From: a virus
DNA length: 47,187 bases
Direction: 5' to 3' (one strand)
Virus record (IMG/VR): IMGVR_UViG_3300023063_000004
Span: 1-47,187 of that record
Part shown: positions 876-47,187 of the stretch, one piece after another
Layout: each line of letters starts with the position of its first letter
Position numbering within the stretch: position 1 is the stretch's first letter
Made by a program: the position numbers and the translations under genes
The notes under the pieces: model-generated
Told to the model about the DNA's origin: nothing
The model's database searches: none
What the model saw: only the letters and a program-made list of their open reading frames with translations

Positions 876-904
876 ACTATAAACCGTTATTAACGGTTTT
901 GCAA
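876..904 (-). promoter_or_regulatory. Sigma70-like promoter with a palindromic operator as spacer
   Basis: On the minus strand: -35 TTGCAA, a 17-bp spacer that is the palindrome AACCGTTAATAACGGTT (882-898), then -10 TATAGT. It would drive the genes starting at 843, 610 and 404. The palindrome overlaps the last codons and stop of the gene 890-1189. The same layout recurs at four other places in the window. Confidence 0.75.
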
Positions 905-2996: not shown

Positions 2997-3174
2997 AATC
3001 TTTAATCCTTTGTCTAAATGTTTCGTCGGTTTCCTCGTACCACTTGTATCTATCAGACCATACGTACCCATCTTTCGGGAATGGCGATACGTCGCGTACG
3101 TAAACTTTGTATGTCGCTACAATCATTCCGTCATCGGCGTACATACGACTTAGCCGTAACAGTTCGTTGCCCAT
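2971..3174 (-). CDS. Hypothetical 67-residue phage protein
   Basis: Tyr/Asp/Lys-rich small protein in the same overlapping series. The start may be 3174 or the internal ATG at 3144, which comes just after the upstream stop; neither has a strong ribosome site. No family recognised. Confidence 0.55.
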   Translation of the reverse strand: MGNELLRLSRMYADDGMIVATYKVYVRDVSPFPKDGYVWSDRYKWYEETDETFRQRIKDYERLGKTD

Positions 3175-3473
3175 TCGTACGCATGCTCGACGGCATCCGC
3201 CAATGACACTTTAGCTAGCGTTTCCGTAACGACACGGTATTGCATCAATTCGCCTGAGAACCCATCGCCGTCTTTCCAAATTTTCCACACACCGTAATAC
3301 ATCGATGCTTCCAAGCCGCCCGCGATAAGTCCGGCGCGCAATGAGTCGTCATCAAATTGTGACTCATCAACTTCGGCAAGTACCGCATCGACGGGGCACA
3401 TGCTTTTTGGTGGCGTACGTTCCAGAATGCCAAAATCTAAAATATCACCCGTGCTAAGTCGCTTATGGTCCAT
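3150..3473 (-). CDS. Hypothetical 107-residue phage protein
   Basis: First gene behind the promoter at 3501-3529, with AGGGGT eight bases before the ATG at 3473. Acidic, with a Trp/Tyr-rich central part. It leads a run of overlapping small genes (3473 down to 2287). Not recognised. Confidence 0.7.
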   Translation of the reverse strand: MDHKRLSTGDILDFGILERTPPKSMCPVDAVLAEVDESQFDDDSLRAGLIAGGLEASMYYGVWKIWKDGDGFSGELMQYRVVTETLAKVSLADAVEHAYEWATNCYG

Positions 3474-3500: not shown

Positions 3501-3529
3501 ATACTGAACCGTTAATAACGGTTTGTCAA
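3501..3529 (-). promoter_or_regulatory. Promoter with perfect TTGACA and palindromic operator spacer
   Basis: Minus strand: -35 TTGACA, 17-bp spacer AACCGTTATTAACGGTT (3507-3523), -10 CAGTAT. The TGA stop of the terminase large subunit gene (3526-3528) is part of the -35 hexamer. Transcription would start just downstream and serve the genes from 3473 onward. Confidence 0.75.
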
Positions 3530-5320: not shown

Positions 5321-5730
5321 GGGAGTGTAATAGGCACCGCAAGGTGCTCCACCGTGACGCCCGGTATCGGTATGTCGGCATGCTCTTTCGCAAGCGCTTC
5401 GGTATCGAACACCATGGCCAATTTGCCCGGTATCGATCCTAGTGCATCACTCGAACTGATGTTGACGTATTTAACCGTGGGAGCAGGTTCGGTCATAAAT
5501 AGGTCGAACGACGATTCAGGCTTACCCGTGGTTGGCATAAATCCGCGCAGATCGTACATTAAAAATGGGTCCGCCGTATCGCCACTACCAACCGCGACAA
5601 TCATCTTGTCGGCAAAGTAGGGATGCAGGCTACGCCTGCTCAGATCGTGCGCAAGGATCTGAGCAGGTCGGCCGTCACGCGTCACGATCGGATCGCCAGC
5701 AATAGCGCGCTCAAGGTTGAACGGTTTCAT
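5317..5730 (-). CDS. MKPFNLE-type phage protein, copy 2 (137 residues)
   Basis: The start at 5730 overlaps the stop of the upstream gene and follows GGAG. It opens MKPFNLERAIAGDPIVTRDGR, a beginning shared with the segment starting at 6089, so two paralogues stand in tandem. From memory, proteins starting this way are widespread small phage proteins of unknown role. It also contains IPGKLAM, found in the gene 2547-2996. Confidence 0.7.
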   Translation of the reverse strand: MKPFNLERAIAGDPIVTRDGRPAQILAHDLSRRSLHPYFADKMIVAVGSGDTADPFLMYDLRGFMPTTGKPESSFDLFMTEPAPTVKYVNISSSDALGSIPGKLAMVFDTEALAKEHADIPIPGVTVEHLAVPITLP

Positions 5731-6764
5731 TCTTCGATCTCCGTCCAAGACTCGCTGAGAAGCATAACGGGTACTGCGCCCGGCATGGTGAACGGCGATG
5801 GATACGATGGCATGATCGTTTCGTGCTCGCGCCGCCATACAGCATGCCCGTCGGAATACAAATACACCTTCGCTCTAACCTTGACCGTTTTCATCACTAG
5901 GTCCGCATTGTGCGGCACCGCACCGGCTTGCCCATTAGCAGTGTAATGCGACACGCGGTCATTGCCTGCCAACTGTACAAGCAGGGGCAATTTAAATCGC
6001 TCATCGTACGCAACGAATCGGACCGTCTGACCGCCGCGCGTAACGGCCGCTTTGCCTGCTTTAAATGCTTCGAGATTGAATGGTTTCATTTTTGGTTCCG
6101 GTAGGGGAGGGGTTGCGATGCAACGGCAGTTGATACTGTTAAATACCGACCATTCGGCGGGACTAATGCCCCAGGGACGCGTACGAGTCACCGACCGATT
6201 CGCCTTGTCGTGCGATATCCATGCTTCAGCGCTTGCCCGTGACGCAAATTGAAATGGCTCGTTTGGCTGTAGCTGATCCATAACCGTTCGCCCGACACGA
6301 TCGATGACGTAAAAATACGCATCATTTTGAGCAATATTGAACGGCGGTAAGAGATATTGCGTAGCGGGCATATATCCCCACGAACTTCCAAAGCCATCGC
6401 TCCACGCATATTCGCGCGGCGATGAAAGCGGTATAGTCGTAAAGTCCTTATACGACGTAACGATTGGCATGTAGTGCGCCGCAATGTACTCGTGGGCATG
6501 ACTGACAAGTGCAAAACGTTCTGGACGCTTGACACCGATGTACGCGATACAAAACATGCCGCCCGAATCGTGAACAATAACAATATCAGCATGTGCCGTT
6601 GCAATTTCATGGCCTGAAACTAGCGCCCATCGTTCGGCTAGTTCTTTCGAGGAAAAGCGTAGAGCATGCCCCGTATGGTGTTGTAACGGAATACGATCCC
6701 CATCAATTAAAATCCAGGGCCGTGGCGTACGTGAACCATCTTGATATGCGGATAATTTCATCAT
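5727..6764 (-). CDS. 345-residue fusion: duplicated domain plus MKPFNLE-type domain
   Basis: The start at 6764 follows AAAGGAAC. Residues 1-225 contain two related units, each a VID/LID strand ending in an aromatic-Ser-Ala/Glu-Trp helix (ALRFSSKELAERW and FQFASRASAEAW). Without any stop, the frame then enters an MKPFNLE domain at residue 226, whose ATG at 6089 has only a weak site. So this is either a true fusion, or two proteins from one frame with an internal start. Its paralogue follows at 5730. Role unknown. Confidence 0.7.
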   Translation of the reverse strand: MMKLSAYQDGSRTPRPWILIDGDRIPLQHHTGHALRFSSKELAERWALVSGHEIATAHADIVIVHDSGGMFCIAYIGVKRPERFALVSHAHEYIAAHYMPIVTSYKDFTTIPLSSPREYAWSDGFGSSWGYMPATQYLLPPFNIAQNDAYFYVIDRVGRTVMDQLQPNEPFQFASRASAEAWISHDKANRSVTRTRPWGISPAEWSVFNSINCRCIATPPLPEPKMKPFNLEAFKAGKAAVTRGGQTVRFVAYDERFKLPLLVQLAGNDRVSHYTANGQAGAVPHNADLVMKTVKVRAKVYLYSDGHAVWRREHETIMPSYPSPFTMPGAVPVMLLSESWTEIEE

Positions 6765-6789: not shown

Positions 6790-6818
6790 ATCCTAAAGTA
6801 TTATTAACGGTTCGTCAA
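6790..6818 (-). promoter_or_regulatory. Promoter with half-degenerate operator spacer
   Basis: Minus strand: -35 TTGACG, 17-bp spacer AACCGTTAATAATACTT (6796-6812; left half intact, right half diverged), -10 TAGGAT. It would drive the gene starting at 6764 and followers. Loss of one half-site predicts weaker repression than at the perfect copies. Confidence 0.65.
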
Positions 6819-7122: not shown

Positions 7123-7139
7123 AATAGTTATTAACAGTT
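7123..7139 (-). promoter_or_regulatory. Degenerate operator copy without clear promoter hexamers
   Basis: The 17-mer AACTGTTAATAACTATT (minus strand) matches the repeated palindrome at most positions and lies in the gap before the 7106 start, but the flanking hexamers (AGTGTG and TGAGAA) do not look like -35 and -10. It may be a relic or a pure binding site. Confidence 0.4.
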
Positions 7140-15552: not shown

Positions 15553-15916
15553 AATATCTCGCAAAGGCATCAACGATAGACTGCCGATAAATTAGAGCAG
15601 GATCGTTACCTTTAAATGCATGCCATTGGCCTGAGCCGATCTGCGTCCGACACTCGCCGGGACTAGTAATAACTCGAACGACCCACGGACCGCGCGCTAC
15701 CAGCATGCGCGGATGTGCTTTAAATTCATTTCGTTGTGCGGCAAGTACCAGACGTAATGCATCGATGCTGTGAATGGATGGTATGCCGCGATATGTGCCA
15801 ATACGCCCTTCACAATCAAATACCTGAACCGCGCCGTGCGATAATTTCACAGTATCAAAAACTGCACTAAGCGCCTTGTAGTCGTCCAACAATTCAGGCG
15901 GTATGGTCGTTAGCAT
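15533..15916 (-). CDS. Hypothetical 127-residue phage protein
   Basis: The start at 15916 follows GGGGATAAAA and lies inside the end of the regulator gene. Mixed helix and strand with a central VFDCEGRIGTYRGIPS segment. No domain recognised. It is co-transcribed with the Cro/C1-type regulator. Confidence 0.6.
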   Translation of the reverse strand: MLTTIPPELLDDYKALSAVFDTVKLSHGAVQVFDCEGRIGTYRGIPSIHSIDALRLVLAAQRNEFKAHPRMLVARGPWVVRVITSPGECRTQIGSGQWHAFKGNDPALIYRQSIVDAFARYYEYITS

Positions 15917-16148
15917 TTTTATCCCCAAATACCAAATAGTCAATTGATACGCCGAGCACGACCGATATATTTTTCAGTGTCGACATGAGCGGATTAACCG
16001 TACGGTTCGCTTCCAAATATTCGTACGTGTTGGCCGCAATGTTGCACTTTTTAGCGGTCTGCCACGATCCGTAACCCTTCGCCTTACGTGCCGCTCGTAT
16101 TCGTCCGCCCATCGTCTGGGAGTCTCGCTCCGCCCGCTCTTGTGTCAC
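15894..16148 (-). CDS. Cro/C1-type helix-turn-helix regulator, about 84 residues
   Basis: The core RIRAARKAKGYGSWQTAKKC, then NTYEYLEANRTVNPLMSTL, then LGVSIDYLVFG is a full XRE-type HTH followed by the usual closing helix. The start is uncertain: GTG 16148 has GGGGTT at good spacing, while ATG 16112 gives less overlap with the gene 16084-16302. It has no C-terminal effector domain. It is a candidate for an early-to-late switch protein; target sites are unknown. Confidence 0.75.
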   Translation of the reverse strand: MTQERAERDSQTMGGRIRAARKAKGYGSWQTAKKCNIAANTYEYLEANRTVNPLMSTLKNISVVLGVSIDYLVFGDKNANDHTA

Positions 16149-16302
16149 GGTATAACCCCGTTGGATGTTGTTCAACGGCGCGATGCCACGCGAACCAACC
16201 GGGTTCACCTTGCCGTTTAAATCGATTAAATAGAACCCCATCATCGCGCCGCGCGTACTGTCGGTCGCGTCCGTTGCCAGTTGTGTAGATGGGGGCTGTC
16301 AT
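16084..16302 (-). CDS. Hypothetical 72-residue phage protein
   Basis: The ATG at 16302 starts 1 base after the preceding stop (TAACATG). The sequence, rich in Arg, Gly and Trp, is basic and could bind nucleic acid. Its end overlaps the regulator gene in another frame, which lowers confidence. Confidence 0.5.
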   Translation of the reverse strand: MTAPIYTTGNGRDRQYARRDDGVLFNRFKRQGEPGWFAWHRAVEQHPTGLYRDTRAGGARLPDDGRTNTSGT

Positions 16303-17611: not shown

Positions 17612-17640
17612 ATAGTAAACCGTTAATAACGGTTTGACAA
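17612..17640 (-). promoter_or_regulatory. Promoter with perfect palindromic operator spacer
   Basis: Minus strand: -35 TTGTCA, spacer AACCGTTATTAACGGTT (17618-17634), -10 TACTAT. It lies between the terminator of the TetR-like gene and the micro-ORF, and would drive the long run of small genes from 17587 to 14457. Confidence 0.78.
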
Positions 17641-17648
17641 GCTATAGA

Positions 17649-17672
17649 CAAAAATAAACCCGCCGTAGCGGG
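17649..17672 (-). terminator. Intrinsic terminator after the TetR-like gene
   Basis: Minus strand: CCCGC, loop TACG, GCGGG, then TTTATTTTTG. It isolates the helicase/nuclease/TetR unit from the next promoter. Confidence 0.85.
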
Positions 17673-17680
17673 GGTAGATA

Positions 17681-17995
17681 TTACGGCGCAGACTGCAATG
17701 CTTTTATCTGCCGTTCCACTCGTTTTGTCAGTTCCGGCGACATAGTCGGCAGTTCGTACATAGCTGCACATTGCGCCAGCGTCTTGGCATCCCCATCGAC
17801 ATGCGCCGCTGCTATCACTTCGGCCCGCATACCCTCACGCCCGTCGAAGTAGCGATTGATCAAGCCGTCAGTAACGCCACATGCGCGTGCAAGTGCGGCA
17901 CGAGTGAGCTTTTTGATACCCTGCGTCTTGGCAATGATGTAAGCCGCCTCCAATAGTTGTTTTTTACGCGTTGTCGCGTCCATTCGTTCAGCCAT
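17681..17995 (-). CDS. TetR-like mini-regulator (DNA-binding domain only), 104 residues
   Basis: Residues 5-50 (TTRKKQLLEAAYIIAKTQG, then LTRAALARACGVTDGLINRYF) have the form of the TetR N-terminal domain, with the helix-turn-helix ending in the usual aromatic Y-F before a glycine. The large ligand-binding half of TetR proteins is missing; only about 50 further residues follow. A degenerate copy of the repeated palindrome lies upstream at 18009-18025. It is the leading candidate for the protein that binds the promoter-spacer operators; this is inference. Confidence 0.75.
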   Translation of the reverse strand: MAERMDATTRKKQLLEAAYIIAKTQGIKKLTRAALARACGVTDGLINRYFDGREGMRAEVIAAAHVDGDAKTLAQCAAMYELPTMSPELTKRVERQIKALQSAP

Positions 17996-18008
17996 GATCG
18001 TAATCGCC

Positions 18009-18025
18009 TATAGTTAATAACAGTT
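18009..18025 (-). promoter_or_regulatory. Operator copy upstream of the TetR-like gene
   Basis: AACTGTTATTAACTATA (minus strand) matches the repeated palindrome with changes mainly in the right half. The flanking hexamers in the standard positions (CCGACC and GGCGAT) are poor, so it may act as an autoregulatory site for readthrough or a weak promoter. Confidence 0.5.
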
Positions 18026-18037
18026 GGTCGGAGCATA

Positions 18038-18529
18038 TCATAGGGTGCCCGGTCCTGTACAGAAACAAGCGTCCGCCCCATCCGCAATAGCTAGTTCCAT
18101 AAAGGCCAATTGCGCGCGCTCATGCTCCGTACCGCTAAATTGCCAATCTTCCGGCTTCATTTCACGCAAGACCGTCTGCGCCACAAGCGATCCGACCATA
18201 TGATCACGGATAAGCGTCGGACGCCAGCCGATCAGATCCGGCGACTTGAGCACTTCATTAACGGCCGCACTTGTATTGCCCAGGCCGAACCTGACTAAAC
18301 GTCCGTCCTTATCTTTCAATGCGCCGCTATTGTTGCGAAATAGACGCACACCTTTACGCGGTGCTTCGAGCGTTACTAGATCCTGTTGCCGTGCTTCACT
18401 ACCCGGCTTGTGGTGCTCGCCGGATGTCTGGTAGTCCATCGATAGCGGACCTGTGCCCAGGTGATGTTCAAGGTCTAGTAATGCTTCCATCGGGATATGC
18501 CACTTTGCCGCCCAGGTACGTAGTTTCAT
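18038..18529 (-). CDS. VRR-NUC domain nuclease
   Basis: 163 residues; ATGA overlap with the upstream gene. The order SEARQQ (near residue 44), RNNSGA (near 66), SPDLIGW (near 96) and REMKPEDW (near 122) fits the VRR-NUC fold, a PD-(D/E)XK relative with Holliday-junction or flap activity. It probably resolves replication or recombination intermediates. Residues 1-40 look like a short extension. Confidence 0.82.
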   Translation of the reverse strand: MKLRTWAAKWHIPMEALLDLEHHLGTGPLSMDYQTSGEHHKPGSEARQQDLVTLEAPRKGVRLFRNNSGALKDKDGRLVRFGLGNTSAAVNEVLKSPDLIGWRPTLIRDHMVGSLVAQTVLREMKPEDWQFSGTEHERAQLAFMELAIADGADACFCTGPGTL

Positions 18530-18807
18530 TTGACCACCGACAGCCGTACACGTTCCTGCATGGATGGGCGAGCGGCGCGGCGTTGGCGCGGACTGGCGCG
18601 GCCGTACCCTTCGGCCTCACGTAATAACGGCGCAGGATCGGGCGGTATTACGATATCAAGCGCTTTAATCTGCGTATCCAGTTCGGCAAGCTTGAGCATG
18701 CCCGCGTTGTATTGATCTGGATTTTTGAAGGTTTGCGCGATCTTATATTTTAGCTGGCGGCGTAACGTCAATAAGTGCTTGACCAGCGTATCCCGTGCTT
18801 TAGTCAT
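18526..18807 (-). CDS. Hypothetical basic helical protein, 93 residues
   Basis: The start at 18807 (MTKARDTL) follows GGAAGTC and overlaps the helicase end by 8 bases. Lys/Arg/Leu-rich, with helices in the first 60 residues and a basic tail (RRAARPSMQERVRLSVVK). It sits between helicase and nuclease, so a replication accessory is plausible. Confidence 0.65.
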   Translation of the reverse strand: MTKARDTLVKHLLTLRRQLKYKIAQTFKNPDQYNAGMLKLAELDTQIKALDIVIPPDPAPLLREAEGYGRASPRQRRAARPSMQERVRLSVVK

Positions 18808-20551
18808 AACTGACTTCCATTTCGTTATTAATGGTTGTGATAATACCACGGGCATTAAGGTCCGCAATGATCTTCTCGCGCAATGCGGTGCCGTCCGATT
18901 CGTTTAGGGTCTTTGCAGCAAGCACATCTATGCCGAACGTCAAATAAAACCGCTTGTAGTTCACTTGGTTGCCTGCATCAGGGTACGATCCCGCCCACCA
19001 TGCCATGGCGTCCCGTAAGTGATATTGTGCCCGTTGACGGTTGCGATGGTTTGCGATGAACGGTAGGCGCGGCACACCGTACGGTACGACCGGCTCAGCA
19101 TCGATACGTGCAATTTCACCGCGATACTTAGCGAGCAATAACGGATCGATTAGGGTAATGTCACCATCAACCGTATTTGCGCCGGATCGATCCGAAGGTA
19201 ACGGCGGTGCAGTTCCGCAGTAGGGGCACTCTGTAAAGAACCGTTCGTATGGTTTGGCGCATTTGACATTCAGACATACGCGCATCGGTATGCCGTCCGA
19301 CTTGCCCCTCGACTGGCGGGTCGCAAGCTTCCATACGCGCGGCTTATCGGGCGGCCCTTCGTGACGATAAAAGTTACCAGCATGATCGAAGATGTATGCA
19401 AACGGCTTACCGCTATTTTCTATAAAATATTTGCGTTGTTCGACGGTGTAGGTATCCCAGGCACCGGCAAGTAACTTACTGATCATCAGACGTAGCGCGC
19501 GGCCCCACTGTTGCGAGTACAGCGAAAAACTGGCGGTAGGTCTTGCAAAACTTACGCATTCTATGGCAGGCAAATCGAACCCTTCGCCAAATAGATCGAC
19601 GTTCACAAGTTGCAATAATTCTCGGTTGCGGAAACGCTTGATGATCGCGCGACGGTCCGAATCTTCCGTATCACTCGTGACAAGTGCGGCCGGTACGCCA
19701 GCTAAATTAAATGCGGCGGTAATTTCAGTAGCGTGTGCAATATCGACAGCGAACGTAACGCCTAGCCGCCCCATCGCATATTTGATGTAGGTTTGTACAA
19801 CATCACCAACGATGCTATTAGATGCGTGAACGGCGTCGCGCAGCTGCGACATGTTGTAGTCACCGTCTGCCGCGATCTTGACGCCCTCTAGATGTAGATC
19901 TTTAGGAGGTATCGCATAGACTTTATAGTCTGTCAGATATGCGTTATCAATCAACCATCGCATCGGCGGACCTTCGACCAACACATCCGCAATACCATCA
20001 CCTTCACGCCCTAATGACTTACCGTCAGCGCGGATCGGTGTAGCAGTGGGTAACAGTCCGATTGCATTGGGGAACATCGCGCGAGCGCGCCCCCACTTGT
20101 TATCACGTAGCACGTGATGCGCTTCGTCTATATGAACCATGCCGACTTTGGCCAGCCAATCGCTTAATACGTCATGACGGCGCACGATCGTATCAACGCT
20201 TGCCACGCGCCAGGGGGACCGGGCATTGTAGAATGTGCGTCCTAGCTCATCCATGTGCGCGTCGACAATGCCGCGTATCGTCTTTTGTGGCGCAATGATG
20301 TCGTGCGGAATATCCTCGCGCGCTAACTGTATGGACATTTGCCCGACAAGTTCGCTACGGTGCGCCATTGAGCAACCGCCCGCTAGGTGCGGCTTACGCG
20401 GCCTAACTATATGATCTTTGGCGATTGATCCCATAACAACGGTCTTGCCGCTTCCCGTTGCACTCTGAAACATGACATCTTCGGCCCCGTTATCCCATGC
20501 GGCATTGGCGCTATCTTTAATTTCTTGCTGGAAGCCGCGTAAAACACTCAT
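18800..20551 (-). CDS. DEAD/DEAH-box (SF2) helicase with zinc motif
   Basis: 583 residues. Walker A SATGSGKT (30-37), DEAH box IDEAHH (141-146), TATP (169-172) and motif VI QQWGRALR (347-354) give a complete SF2 helicase of the type II restriction/recombination-like class. A C-x5-C and CxxC zinc site follows (425, 431, 442, 445). It would unwind DNA in phage replication. The upstream region is shared with a divergent gene and an operator. Confidence 0.92.
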   Translation of the reverse strand: MSVLRGFQQEIKDSANAAWDNGAEDVMFQSATGSGKTVVMGSIAKDHIVRPRKPHLAGGCSMAHRSELVGQMSIQLAREDIPHDIIAPQKTIRGIVDAHMDELGRTFYNARSPWRVASVDTIVRRHDVLSDWLAKVGMVHIDEAHHVLRDNKWGRARAMFPNAIGLLPTATPIRADGKSLGREGDGIADVLVEGPPMRWLIDNAYLTDYKVYAIPPKDLHLEGVKIAADGDYNMSQLRDAVHASNSIVGDVVQTYIKYAMGRLGVTFAVDIAHATEITAAFNLAGVPAALVTSDTEDSDRRAIIKRFRNRELLQLVNVDLFGEGFDLPAIECVSFARPTASFSLYSQQWGRALRLMISKLLAGAWDTYTVEQRKYFIENSGKPFAYIFDHAGNFYRHEGPPDKPRVWKLATRQSRGKSDGIPMRVCLNVKCAKPYERFFTECPYCGTAPPLPSDRSGANTVDGDITLIDPLLLAKYRGEIARIDAEPVVPYGVPRLPFIANHRNRQRAQYHLRDAMAWWAGSYPDAGNQVNYKRFYLTFGIDVLAAKTLNESDGTALREKIIADLNARGIITTINNEMEVSYD

Positions 20552-20564
20552 CGTTAATTCCCTA

Positions 20565-20593
20565 TTGCTAAACCGTTAATAACAGTTTAGCAT
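20565..20593. promoter_or_regulatory. Divergent promoter region with one palindromic operator
   Basis: Plus strand: -35 TTGCTA, spacer AACCGTTAATAACAGTT (20571-20587), -10 TAGCAT, facing the gene at 20630. On the minus strand the same palindrome is flanked by ATGCTA and TAGCAA, facing the helicase gene. One site could thus control both replication operons; the minus promoter looks weaker. Confidence 0.7.
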
Positions 20594-22877: not shown

Positions 22878-23993
22878 ATGGAATTCACAACCCCCGTTGG
22901 AAAGCTTGTACAAGGTGATTGCTTTAAAGGCAGTACGACGAATCAAGATGGCACGCCGCGTACGATCAAGACTGGCCCAAATAAGGGCAATCCGACGACA
23001 TCGTATTTCTTCGCTGTCGCGTATCCGAAGTTGCTTGCGAACGGTGCGCCCAATGAGCCGTTTTATAAGCTGTATCGCGAAATTATCGATGTAGCTCGCG
23101 CCGGGTATCCGCAACTTTTCACCGGCCCCGTCGACGGCTTTACCGGTAAGCCAGGAAGCGTGCGCCCCACGATGTCATACAAGGTCATTGATGGTGATGG
23201 CGTGGATGAGAATGGCGTACAAAACAATACGAAGCCGGGCTTTGCCGGTTGTTACGTGATTCGGTTCGGCGGTCAATATGCGCCAAAGTGTTTCGAACTC
23301 GGCAAATTCCGCCTCGACCAACAATTGCAAGATCCGGCGCGCGTCAAAAAGGGATATCTCGTTTCGGTATCGGGTACGTGTGAGCCGAACATCGGATCGG
23401 ACAAGCCCGGCGTGTATATGAATGGCAATCTCGTTTGCTTGGTTGCGACGTGCCCGGATTCCGAAGTCATCACGAATGGTCCCGATGCTGATGCTGCATT
23501 CAAGGGATTGGACGTTACGGCATTGCCAGCCGGATACGTTGCAGGTGCTACGGCCGCAACTGCACCCGGTTTGCCGCCTGCCGGTGGATTACCTCCCGCC
23601 CCTGCGTCGACCGCGCCGGGTTTGCCGCCAGTAACAGGCGGACTGCCACCGGCACCAGCACCGGCCGCATCGTTACCGGCACCGCCAGCCGGTCCGCAGT
23701 TGACGCCAGCGGGCATCGCGTCCGGGTATACCTACGATCAGTACAAAACGGCGGGATACACGGATGCAATGATGATCGAAAAGGGCTTTCTTGCGCCGGT
23801 CGTACCGAATCATGGCTTCGTTGAAAATGCAGGCGGACTGCCACCGGCACCAGCACCGGCCGCATCGTTACCGGCACCGCCAGCCGGTCCGCAGTTGACG
23901 CCAGCGGGCATCGCGTCCGGGTATACCTACGATCAGTACAAAGCGGCGGGCTACAATGACGACCTGCTCAGGTCGAAAGGTTTCTTAGCTTAA
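22878..23993 (+). CDS. DUF2815-like ssDNA-binding protein with duplicated tail
   Basis: 371 residues, start after GTGGAG. Residues 1-200 resemble the DUF2815/ssDNA-binding fold (KGNPTTSYFFAVAYPK, then RFGGQYAPKCFELG). The rest is Pro/Ala-rich with two copies of a YTYDQYKxAGYxD unit ending KGFLA. The tail repeats are identical at DNA level over 113 bp. The protein probably coats ssDNA and recruits partners through its repeated C-terminal units. Confidence 0.78.
   Translation: MEFTTPVGKLVQGDCFKGSTTNQDGTPRTIKTGPNKGNPTTSYFFAVAYPKLLANGAPNEPFYKLYREIIDVARAGYPQLFTGPVDGFTGKPGSVRPTMSYKVIDGDGVDENGVQNNTKPGFAGCYVIRFGGQYAPKCFELGKFRLDQQLQDPARVKKGYLVSVSGTCEPNIGSDKPGVYMNGNLVCLVATCPDSEVITNGPDADAAFKGLDVTALPAGYVAGATAATAPGLPPAGGLPPAPASTAPGLPPVTGGLPPAPAPAASLPAPPAGPQLTPAGIASGYTYDQYKTAGYTDAMMIEKGFLAPVVPNHGFVENAGGLPPAPAPAASLPAPPAGPQLTPAGIASGYTYDQYKAAGYNDDLLRSKGFLA
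23635..23747 (+). repeat. 113-bp direct repeat, copy 1 (copy 2 at 23830-23942)
   Basis: Within the ssDNA-binding-like gene, 113 bp recur without a single difference 195 bp (65 codons) downstream; beyond that the flanks differ. Identity at silent positions points to a recent in-frame duplication or ongoing gene conversion. Confidence 0.9.
23830..23942 (+). repeat. 113-bp direct repeat, copy 2
   Basis: Second copy of the repeat at 23635-23747. It encodes the last proline-rich linker and YTYDQY segment of the protein. Confidence 0.9.
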
Positions 23994-44161: not shown

Positions 44162-45036
44162 TCCTCATCGTCGTCAAAATCGAATACCGGCCGCATTGTG
44201 CAACGGCAAAAAATGGCTTGTCCGGGAATACCGCGCTCGCCTTTCTCCGGTCCATCCAAATAGGGCAAGTCGTCAAATGAGAATATTTTACCATTCAGCA
44301 CGTCACGGTGATATTCGCGGGGATGTGCGGACCCACCGCTATGCACCCATTGAAACTTTTTTAAACCTAACGCTTCCATGCGCCCCTTATTAAGCGCGTT
44401 ATACGCTTTGCGTGTCTGGTCAAGTGCTACATTCTTAGACCAATTCTTAACCGTTACTCCACACTTATCTAGCGCCGGGATAATATCCGCTAAACCGTTA
44501 CCAGTTTGGATTGAGCGATTTACAACGCCGGATATCTCATCTAAATATTTATCTTTGGTACGCGTTATCAAGTTGACGTTTTCAGTTACCGACGACGAAA
44601 TGATATTACGCAGATCCTCACTAAGCATCGAAGGGTCAAGCGTGTAATTGCCTGACATTTCCTTAAGCGATGCGCCTAGCTTCAGACCGCTATCCCGCGA
44701 CGTTTGCCCGATGATCTTTTCAGCCAACGGACGTGCGAACTTAGCAAAGACCGCCGTAAATTTATCACTCATGCGGTTCATTACTATGCGCGCCTGCGAT
44801 GCGATACTTGCATCCATGGCATACGCACTATCCATTGCATCAGCATCGCTATAGAGCGCCCGTAACTCGCGCATTACTTCGCGCTCCATTGCAACGATAT
44901 GCGCCTGCAATACGTCGTTATAACGTACCGCAATCGCGCCGGATGGATTTAACGGCGTACCTTTCACTGCTGGCACCTTGAACCGTTGCGCCCATTCAGC
45001 GCGCTCCTTACTAAGGCGTACCTGACGATGCCCCAT
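44158..45036 (-). CDS. Minor head protein (Mu gpF / SPP1 gp7-like)
   Basis: 292 residues. The C-terminal WVHSGGSAHPREYH, NGKIF and PGQAIFCRCTMRPV pattern is the phage head morphogenesis motif. It binds the portal and may aid DNA exit. An AMDSAYAMDAS stretch near residue 67 resembles the MDA sites in the protease. Overlaps the portal stop by one base. Confidence 0.88.
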   Translation of the reverse strand: MGHRQVRLSKERAEWAQRFKVPAVKGTPLNPSGAIAVRYNDVLQAHIVAMEREVMRELRALYSDADAMDSAYAMDASIASQARIVMNRMSDKFTAVFAKFARPLAEKIIGQTSRDSGLKLGASLKEMSGNYTLDPSMLSEDLRNIISSSVTENVNLITRTKDKYLDEISGVVNRSIQTGNGLADIIPALDKCGVTVKNWSKNVALDQTRKAYNALNKGRMEALGLKKFQWVHSGGSAHPREYHRDVLNGKIFSFDDLPYLDGPEKGERGIPGQAIFCRCTMRPVFDFDDDED

Positions 45037-46643
45037 TACGCACTCTCGGATACGGACTGCCCGCTACTCTTTGCCGATGATAAATTTTCGGGCGACTCGG
45101 TACCCTTATCGGCTGGTGCAGAATTGTTAGGCGTCACGTCATCATCGTCTGGCAACAGTTCGCCCGATACGAGTAGGGGCGCGAGCGTCGTATAACCGCT
45201 GTTCTTATCGTTACGCAAGCGCGCATTGATATCCGTATCGTCAATAGCGCCCGTACCTTTAAGCGCTACGTCGGCATTAGCGTTATTAAGATTAATTTCG
45301 CTGTACTCTTTCGCCGTTGGTGAATCGAGTGGCAACCACGATACGACTGTGCCGGGCGTGCCCTTACCGAACTTCGGCACCACGAACGACAAGCGTACCA
45401 ATAGGTGATGACGTTCCAACATGGGTGATAATTCGTGCGTCTGTAGCGATTCTAGCCCTTCGTGATAGTTCGACTCATCGTAAGACCCTTCATTGCTTAG
45501 ACCGCCTACAGCCGTCCCCATTGCCTTATTGACGGGCACCTCACCGGCCGCGCACGCAAGTGCGTATTGATTTTCAATAACGTCCGCCAGATCCGCCAGT
45601 GACGTATCGATTTGATCCATTTCATCATCTTTGCCCATGATGCGAAACCCGTGGTTGTCTCGCGTCTCAATAGCAAATTGCATCCCCTGATCGAACTTCG
45701 CTTTGTTGGCCATCACCGCCGCAAGGTCATCAATCTTGTACGTCATGAGACGCTTTGTCAGTGCGAGCAATGGCGCTTCATTGCCGGTACGTTCCGCCGC
45801 GTAAACGCGCTCCATAATCTTCTGAGGGATCGGTACGCCGCTGTACAGGTATGACGGCTTCAGAATGTCAGGCACTTCGCCGGTACGGAATATGCAAAGG
45901 TGCGAACGGTGATATTTTTTACCGTTGATGAGCCACCATGTAGGCTCATAGAATCCGGCGACATCGGGACGGCTGGCGGCGTCACCGGACAAGATGGGCG
46001 ACATCCAATACGGATCAACCTGAATCATCCCTTTGTACGATCCGGCCGTAACGCCGTCCGGGTTGAATGGCTTTTCGTAATAGTCAACATCACCCGATTC
46101 GACAACCGGGATACATACGCGAATGCCGAAGATGCGGCCCAGGCGTGCGTATTCGTACATCTTTTGATTGATGGTGAATAGCTTGTCGTACTTGGCATAC
46201 TCAGCTAATTCATCTTCGGATAGTTCTGTCTCGCCAACTGCGCTAGTGACTTCATATCCTTGGCGGATCGCATCACGTGCCGGGATTGAACATATCTTAT
46301 CGATCAACCAATGTTGCGCGATGATGGCGCACGCCTGATGCCCGATAAATGACTGCGTGCCGTACCATTGAAATAGTGCATCGGACATTGCAGGCTGGCC
46401 AATATCGAATGCACCGGCGAAGTCATCCGTACCCGAGTCGGCGTCATCCATCGTTCCGTCAGCGCGCATTACCCTCGGACGGTTATCAGATAAATAACGG
46501 TTCCATACCTTACGCAACTTATCGGACATTGCGGCCCGGTTGCTTGTATTGTCCAAGTCGCCGCGATGGGTTGAAAACAAGCCACCCTTGCTAACCTTCT
46601 CAACTGCGGCCGGTATCGGCTTCTTTGCAAACCATCCGAACAT
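45036..46643 (-). CDS. Portal protein (DUF1073)
   Basis: 535 residues from the ATG at 46643; the longer frame from 46670 would start inside a terminator. WLIDKICSIPARDAIRQGYEV, then IPQKIMERVYAAERTGNEAP, then FDQGMQFAIETRDNHGF follow the DUF1073 portal order. It forms the dodecameric DNA gate and binds the terminase. The C-terminal 60 residues are acidic and disordered. Confidence 0.9.
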   Translation of the reverse strand: MFGWFAKKPIPAAVEKVSKGGLFSTHRGDLDNTSNRAAMSDKLRKVWNRYLSDNRPRVMRADGTMDDADSGTDDFAGAFDIGQPAMSDALFQWYGTQSFIGHQACAIIAQHWLIDKICSIPARDAIRQGYEVTSAVGETELSEDELAEYAKYDKLFTINQKMYEYARLGRIFGIRVCIPVVESGDVDYYEKPFNPDGVTAGSYKGMIQVDPYWMSPILSGDAASRPDVAGFYEPTWWLINGKKYHRSHLCIFRTGEVPDILKPSYLYSGVPIPQKIMERVYAAERTGNEAPLLALTKRLMTYKIDDLAAVMANKAKFDQGMQFAIETRDNHGFRIMGKDDEMDQIDTSLADLADVIENQYALACAAGEVPVNKAMGTAVGGLSNEGSYDESNYHEGLESLQTHELSPMLERHHLLVRLSFVVPKFGKGTPGTVVSWLPLDSPTAKEYSEINLNNANADVALKGTGAIDDTDINARLRNDKNSGYTTLAPLLVSGELLPDDDDVTPNNSAPADKGTESPENLSSAKSSGQSVSESA

Positions 46644-47110: not shown

Positions 47111-47187
47111 CTACTCCGTAAATAATGAAATAAATTTCTCTTTTTGGGCGGCACGGGCGGCGGCATCGGCGGCGGCATCGGCGGCGG
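47111..47187 (-). CDS. Alanine-rich repeat protein, C-terminal part (cut by window edge)
   Basis: In frame it reads ADAAADAAARAAQKEKFISLFTE then stop at 47111-47113. It is the end of the gene that begins at 404. The two parts add to 481 bases, one more than a multiple of three, so the simple join is out of frame by two missing bases (or one extra). Confidence 0.8.
   Translation of the reverse strand, partial: AADAAADAAARAAQKEKFISLFTE

Follow-up and report, generated by a model that had tools for sequence, protein, structure and literature searches.

A miniature TetR-like protein very probably binds palindromic operators in early promoters of related phages

Which protein recognises a 17-nt palindrome that recurs in the putative promoters of a phage genome, and could it be the product of the small TetR-like gene lying among these sites? 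The locus is part of a whole IMG/VR virus record of 47,187 bases, referred to here as the window, whose gene order suggests a small contractile-tailed phage. Leftward from 20.5 kb run helicase, nuclease-like, tetR, primase and terminase genes, the helicase being first in the early operon to which tetR belongs; genes for an exonuclease, an annealing protein and a DNA polymerase run rightward, and a structural region at 26-47 kb holds those for head, tail sheath, baseplate and portal (Table 1). Both ends of the record (1-107 and 47137-47187) carry the same GGCGGCATAGGCGGC-type repeat, which suggests that a gene is cut at the record ends and that the map is circular or permuted. A 126-nt direct repeat, 98% identical, is located within the annealing-protein gene 22878-23993 (23635-23760 and 23830-23955, starts 195 bp apart).

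The mini-TetR protein was characterised by profile and structure searches. Residues 14-60 matched TetR_N (PF00440; E 2.7e-8, above the curated cut-off), which was the best Pfam match, and HTH_3 was matched below its cut-off (E 0.065). The Pfam search gave no TetR C-terminal ligand-binding or dimerisation family within the 104 residues, and the profile matches in the PDB, which are TetR structures, end at profile position 87. The protein was assigned to PHROG 8723, of unknown function. An AlphaFold2 model (mean pLDDT 77) contained six helices (7-25, 32-39, 43-50, 53-67, 70-79 and 87-102), of which the first four are arranged as in TetR; with this model as the query, the top Foldseek matches in the PDB all belonged to the TetR family, LuxR and SmcR first (probability 1.00, with modest E values of about 0.01). 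These results bear out the first-pass annotation in describing a protein reduced to a TetR-type DNA-binding domain. Ligand-induced release from DNA is not expected, since the ligand domain is absent. The presumed tetR promoter region lies inside the 3' end of the gene in the preceding slot. A GC-rich hairpin with a T-rich run behind it (cccgctacggcggg tttattttt; 17648-17677) separates tetR from the next operator-promoter on the minus strand and looks like a terminator for tetR.

The repeated 17-mer, AACCGTTAWTAACGGTT, has exact copies at 882, 3507 and 17618, one copy with 1 mismatch at 20571 and three with 3 mismatches at 6796, 7123 and 32690. Thus 7 sites occur in the window at ≤3 mismatches compared to 0.16 expected, and 13 occur at ≤4 mismatches compared to 1.4 in Markov shuffles. 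Five copies (882, 3507, 6796, 17618 and 20571) exactly fill the 17-bp spacer between -35 and -10 hexamers that match at 8 or 9 of 12 positions; with a background rate of 0.005 per position for ≥8 matches, finding five of the seven copies in such spacers by chance has an arithmetic probability of ~7e-11. At the divergent site 20571 the hexamers read TTGCTA-17-TAGCAT on the plus strand and a weaker ATGCTA-17-TAGCAA on the minus strand. The promoter at 17612-17640 serves the operon after tetR, which includes the Cro-like gene, and this operator-promoter is conserved among relatives. All convincing sites precede early and replication operons and none lies in the structural region; site 32690, which falls there and has poor hexamers, was rejected as an operator and is probably a chance match. 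The placement of operators between -35 and -10, proposed from the window alone, therefore holds for five copies, and the arrangement recurs in relatives. A further operator-like site, with 3 mismatches to the class A consensus described below, is located where the helicase gene ends, ahead of the gene that follows (18820-18836), and an equivalent is found at the same place in the related genome G001 (C1:25472-25488); conserved coding is an alternative explanation for both.

Table 1. Genes, promoters and predicted operators of the window, with coordinates of tandem TetR genes in related contigs
Feature	Position	Strand	Remarks
Predicted operator, exact	882-898	-	Spacer TTGCAA-17-TATAGT; upstream of 607-843
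Predicted operator, exact	3507-3523	-	Spacer TTGACA-17-CAGTAT; upstream of 3150-3473
Predicted operator, 3 mismatches	6796-6812	-	Spacer TTGACG-17-TAGGAT; upstream of 5727-6764
Predicted operator, 3 mismatches	7123-7139	-	Directly downstream of -10-like TATAGT
Cro/C1-type HTH_3 protein	15894-16244	-	Pfam; downstream of 17618 operator-promoter
Sigma70-like promoter TTGTCA-N17-TACTAT	17612-17640	-	Contains operator 17618-17634
Predicted operator, exact palindrome	17618-17634	-	Spacer TTGTCA-17-TACTAT
Mini-TetR gene	17681-17995	-	104 aa, TetR_N and short helical tail
Weak predicted operator copy, AACTGTTATTAACTATA	18009-18025	-	Position -30 from tetR ATG
Gene in slot preceding tetR	18038-18529	-	C-terminal motif and position shared with relatives' 'nuclease'
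DNA helicase	18800-20551	-	phrog_16, E 6e-80
Predicted operator, 1 mismatch	20571-20587	.	Divergent promoter, helicase (-) and exonuclease/polymerase operon (+)
Tandem TetR gene	L005:9776-10294		
Tandem TetR gene	L029-L031 and L039:9779-10294		
Tandem TetR gene	L033:1430-1945		
Tandem TetR gene	L034:1143-1661		
Tandem TetR gene	L035:1819-2337		

A degenerate copy just before tetR had been read as a sign of autoregulation at lower affinity, and the stretch under study, which ends at 18025, includes it. This copy has 4 mismatches; a -10-like TATGAT precedes it, and 13 nt separate it from the tetR start codon. The chance of a 4-mismatch site in a given 45-nt stretch is ~0.0009. Taken by itself, the copy would carry little weight. 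Using a matrix built from spacer operators only, we scanned the 50 nt before tetR in 14 genomes, including the window. The best match fell at -25 to -31 of the start codon in 13 of the 14, and each of these was in the top 2% of windows of its locus, although the 13 sites are not independent because the genomes share a common phage ancestry. The leader sites were degenerate relative to the spacer operators. A weaker site kept at a fixed distance before tetR agrees with the earlier reading, and we conclude that the leader copy is probably autoregulatory.

About 100 phage records carry mini-TetR genes of about 90-110 aa. Klebsiella Jedunaviruses account for most of them, and others come from phages of Vibrio, Edwardsiella, Shewanella, Alteromonas, Pantoea, Pectobacterium, Acinetobacter and Oceanospirillum. 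Closer relatives are present on thirteen IMG/VR contigs, and a search of genome contigs returned none; a 17-member alignment, A1, was too divergent to be used as a search query. Our comparison set comprised 27 related phages, in which the records may be fragments. The slot helicase - nuclease(-like) - tetR - primase was conserved in most genomes examined. The Stenotrophomonas phages Silvanus and B2 were dropped as tetR-less controls, since in both of them this slot is occupied by a TetR-like gene. The Silvanus gene (L070:33453-33950) encodes a TetR-like N-terminus and, behind it, a long tail rich in Lys and Ala that resembles histone H1; this phage carries a repeated asymmetric motif, AGGGGTTTCACTGA, at L070:34009-34022, 44728-44741 and 45261-45274, twice within promoter spacers.

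Operators differ from lineage to lineage, in step with the recognition helix of the protein. Class A operators, AAYCGTTANTAACGRTT (CGTTA-N-TAACG), were found at 5 sites in the window and 7 in G001 at ≤2 mismatches, compared to about 0 in shuffles; an asymmetric class B, GACCGTYAWTAGYGKTC, characterises a group of phages with a tandem TetR protein, one member of which (G002) has the more divergent versions GGGCGTTAATAAGGTAC and TACCGTTAATAACGACC; and class C, AATCRTAAWTTAYGATT (CRTAA-W-TTAYG), occurs at 6-7 sites each in Psp6, G010, G011 and G012. The counts of operators by class and genome were nearly block-diagonal, and the few class A matches in G010-G012, of the Psp6-like group, are expected because the class A and C motifs differ mainly at one symmetric position. 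The three classes share a conserved C/G at equal distance from the dyad, and DGL[IV][NS]RYF is common to the recognition helices of their proteins. In JD001, the Jedunavirus KpV79, AAM22 and CP-T1 the helix is instead of the type G[ST][VI] and the operator is TTGACG-N4-CGTCAA, which is also present in MSW-3. In whole-genome counts this last operator appears unspecific owing to the high background of coding DNA, and the claim rests on intergenic DNA, where we obtained p = 2.5e-10 in JD001, 3.7e-6 in MSW-3 and 5.9e-7 in CP-T1 compared to a best shuffle p of about 3e-4. Several of the KpV79 sites match promoters annotated by the depositor.

Palindrome counts over whole genomes were generally swamped by coding bias in the absence of an intergenic mask, and AT-rich repeats dominated the output of a first intergenic scan, so that the scan was then limited to sites shared with the divergent promoter. 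It found no repeated operator in AeroV348, R9Y3, PY6 and SppYZU01 despite their mini-TetR, and PD0307 gave a weak candidate only (ACTTTC-N5-GAAAGT). Since helix and operator alike descend with the phage lineage, the comparison amounts to only about four independent cases. Together, these results suggest that operator class tracks recognition-helix class across phages, and they favour the TetR-like protein as the binder, as had been predicted from the window. We found no description of these operators in the open-access literature; an earlier description elsewhere is possible.

Nine of the thirteen IMG/VR contigs (L005, L029-L035 and L039) encode the tandem form, in which another TetR-like segment stands N-terminal to the conserved TetR domain in a chain of about 171-177 aa. 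Pfam finds the C-terminal unit only, above the curated cut-off in L005 and just below it in L031, and Foldseek, run on the tandem model, returned E values above 0.2; confirmation as TetR, by Pfam, is therefore limited to the C-terminal unit, and the N-terminal unit may be called TetR-like from its sequence resemblance and predicted helices. The spacer operators of this group keep a mean of 5.2 of 8 symmetric pairs versus 7.3 in the single-domain phages of the window and G001, and they depart from symmetry mainly at position 3, which is symmetric in 21% versus 100%. Relative to the promoter, the asymmetric operator invariably points the same way. It could be linked to the two-unit chain, as a hypothesis; several leader sites of the same phages look symmetric, such as GCCCGTTATTAACGCCT with its symmetric core, and for this reason we did not take the two-unit architecture to prove asymmetric binding. 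The tandem phages also have a conserved promoter with no operator, TTGACA-N17-TAAAGT (L030:16853, L031:15524, L032:7393, L033:8352, L034:7393, L035:8308 and L039:17092), which perhaps drives genes outside mini-TetR control.

Domain, predicted operators, promoter register, conservation and the match of protein class to operator class are apparent at the level of sequence. They make it quite likely that mini-TetR is a ligand-free, autoregulated miniature repressor of early and middle promoters from a phage-specific family, and that it very probably binds the matching palindromes in the early gene switches of at least two dozen related phages. Host RNA polymerase would initiate the early and middle operons at sigma70 promoters with the operator as their 17-bp spacer. 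Expression of the helicase operon would yield mini-TetR, a dimer of which would bind the palindromes and block the polymerase, so that its accumulation would shut down these operons while the weaker operator in the tetR leader would hold down production of the protein itself. Physical binding, dimer formation, repression and its timing are what we infer, and with them the early shut-off that the first-pass annotation had put forward. Among the counterpoints, helicase, nuclease and primase are also conserved in all of these phages, and a dimer is proposed for a protein that has no TetR dimerisation domain.

The 17-mers could instead be bound by the Cro/C1-type protein, leaving mini-TetR another role. 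The product of 15894-16244 is a bona fide HTH_3 protein by Pfam with a homologue in G001, and Cro/C1 operators are likewise palindromes of about 17 bp. However, of 22 genomes only 2, the window and G001, have an HTH_3 match above the family cut-off, while operator-promoters persist in many genomes that do not have this protein, and so it cannot be the general binder; the conserved weak site, moreover, adjoins tetR and not the Cro/C1-type gene. Because the 17618 operator-promoter also precedes this gene, a role as target is more likely than one as master binder, and we regard binding by its product as very improbable. Equally little credence is given to the palindromes being host-factor sites or a host promoter signal. 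Their location within sigma70-like promoters would make them usable by a host regulator, but the hexamers are constant whereas the spacer palindrome differs between lineages in step with the phage protein's recognition helix, and the conserved promoter of the tandem group has the hexamers and the 17-bp spacing but no operator.

Mini-TetR may also bind as proposed and act differently. An activator or promoter-remodelling dual regulator would fit the fixed orientation of operator to promoter in the tandem group and the nearest solved TetR relatives from the profile search, LuxR/HapR, which activate as well as repress. We consider this unlikely: 17-bp spacing and near-consensus -35 and -10 hexamers make an activator unnecessary and fit repression rather than MerR-type activation, a protein over the spacer is normally a block, and promoter duplication could explain the fixed orientation. 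Somewhat less improbable is that mini-TetR serves mainly to maintain, or give immunity in, a carrier or pseudolysogenic state and not to shut off early genes in lytic growth. This explanation overlaps with the preferred one, binding and repression being identical and only their use differing. It draws on CP-T1, temperate by report in PMC3391216, with no known lysogeny genes and with both tetR and the operator set, and on KpV79, which has two genes annotated as anti-repressor Ant (L028:18272-18937 and 19332-20027) that could act against mini-TetR. Against it, most relatives are reported or presumed lytic, integrase is absent from 22 records, and no sign of partition or integration was found in the window.

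The phage had initially been described as having no lysogeny genes. The tyrosine-family phage integrase (PF00589) gave no match in 22 records and was positive in all 14 control genomes, so the description holds for this integrase family; a purely lytic life is not assured, since a 2012 comparison of this phage group (PMC3391216) reports CP-T1 as temperate in the absence of any known lysogeny genes. That paper describes the tetR-like genes of PLPE, CP-T1 and 138 as probably co-opted cellular regulators. In CP-T1 (L015), TTGACG-N4-YGTCAA sites occur at 6537, 12722, 14176, 23361, 25768, 34100 and 38145, including at the divergent promoter and beside tetR. Soon after tetR lies a GC-rich 15-bp tandem array (GCGGCGCAAACCTAC; L015:12979-13150), probably the repeat discussed in PMC3391216. 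A broader reading, which is possible though doubtful, is that mini-TetR arose independently as a repressor system among integrase-free phages and would explain the temperate behaviour of CP-T1, and that one branch of the family underwent a two-domain fusion and then a switch from symmetric to asymmetric operators.

If repression by mini-TetR is the true reading, a repressor system of these seemingly integrase-free phages has been overlooked behind the isolated 'TetR' label given by databases. It would provide a predicted master repressor with mapped targets for dozens of phages, including therapy-relevant Jedunaviruses, and make the 2012 puzzle of CP-T1 temperate behaviour with no lysogeny genes directly testable. 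As TetR proteins pared down to the DNA-binding domain, with operator specificities of several distinct kinds, these proteins are also a natural set for studies of protein-DNA recognition.

The tetR-like genes of PLPE, CP-T1 and 138 belong to the same phage group and are the same gene, and the passages of PMC3391216 on them do not give operators, targets or mechanism. Sequence and fold searches also matched Mce3R of Mycobacterium tuberculosis (PDB 9b7y). Mce3R has 406 residues compared to about 171 aa in the tandem phage chain, which consists essentially of DNA-binding domains only. It is a double-TetR protein with full ligand domains and so sets a precedent for joining two TetR units in a single chain. 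With the TetR family at large, whose nearest solved members are LuxR, SmcR and HapR, mini-TetR shares the N-terminal three-helix HTH, palindromic operators predicted in silico to overlap promoters and, probably, autoregulation, but about 45 residues with a phage-specific motif replace the C-terminal ligand and dimerisation domain. Like Cro/CI-type repressors, it is predicted to be a small phage repressor with palindromic operators in early promoters and its own gene among the targets; unlike them, it has the TetR_N and not the HTH_3 fold, its family has no common partner repressor, and its operators are many, dispersed and single, in contrast to the clustered OR and OL.
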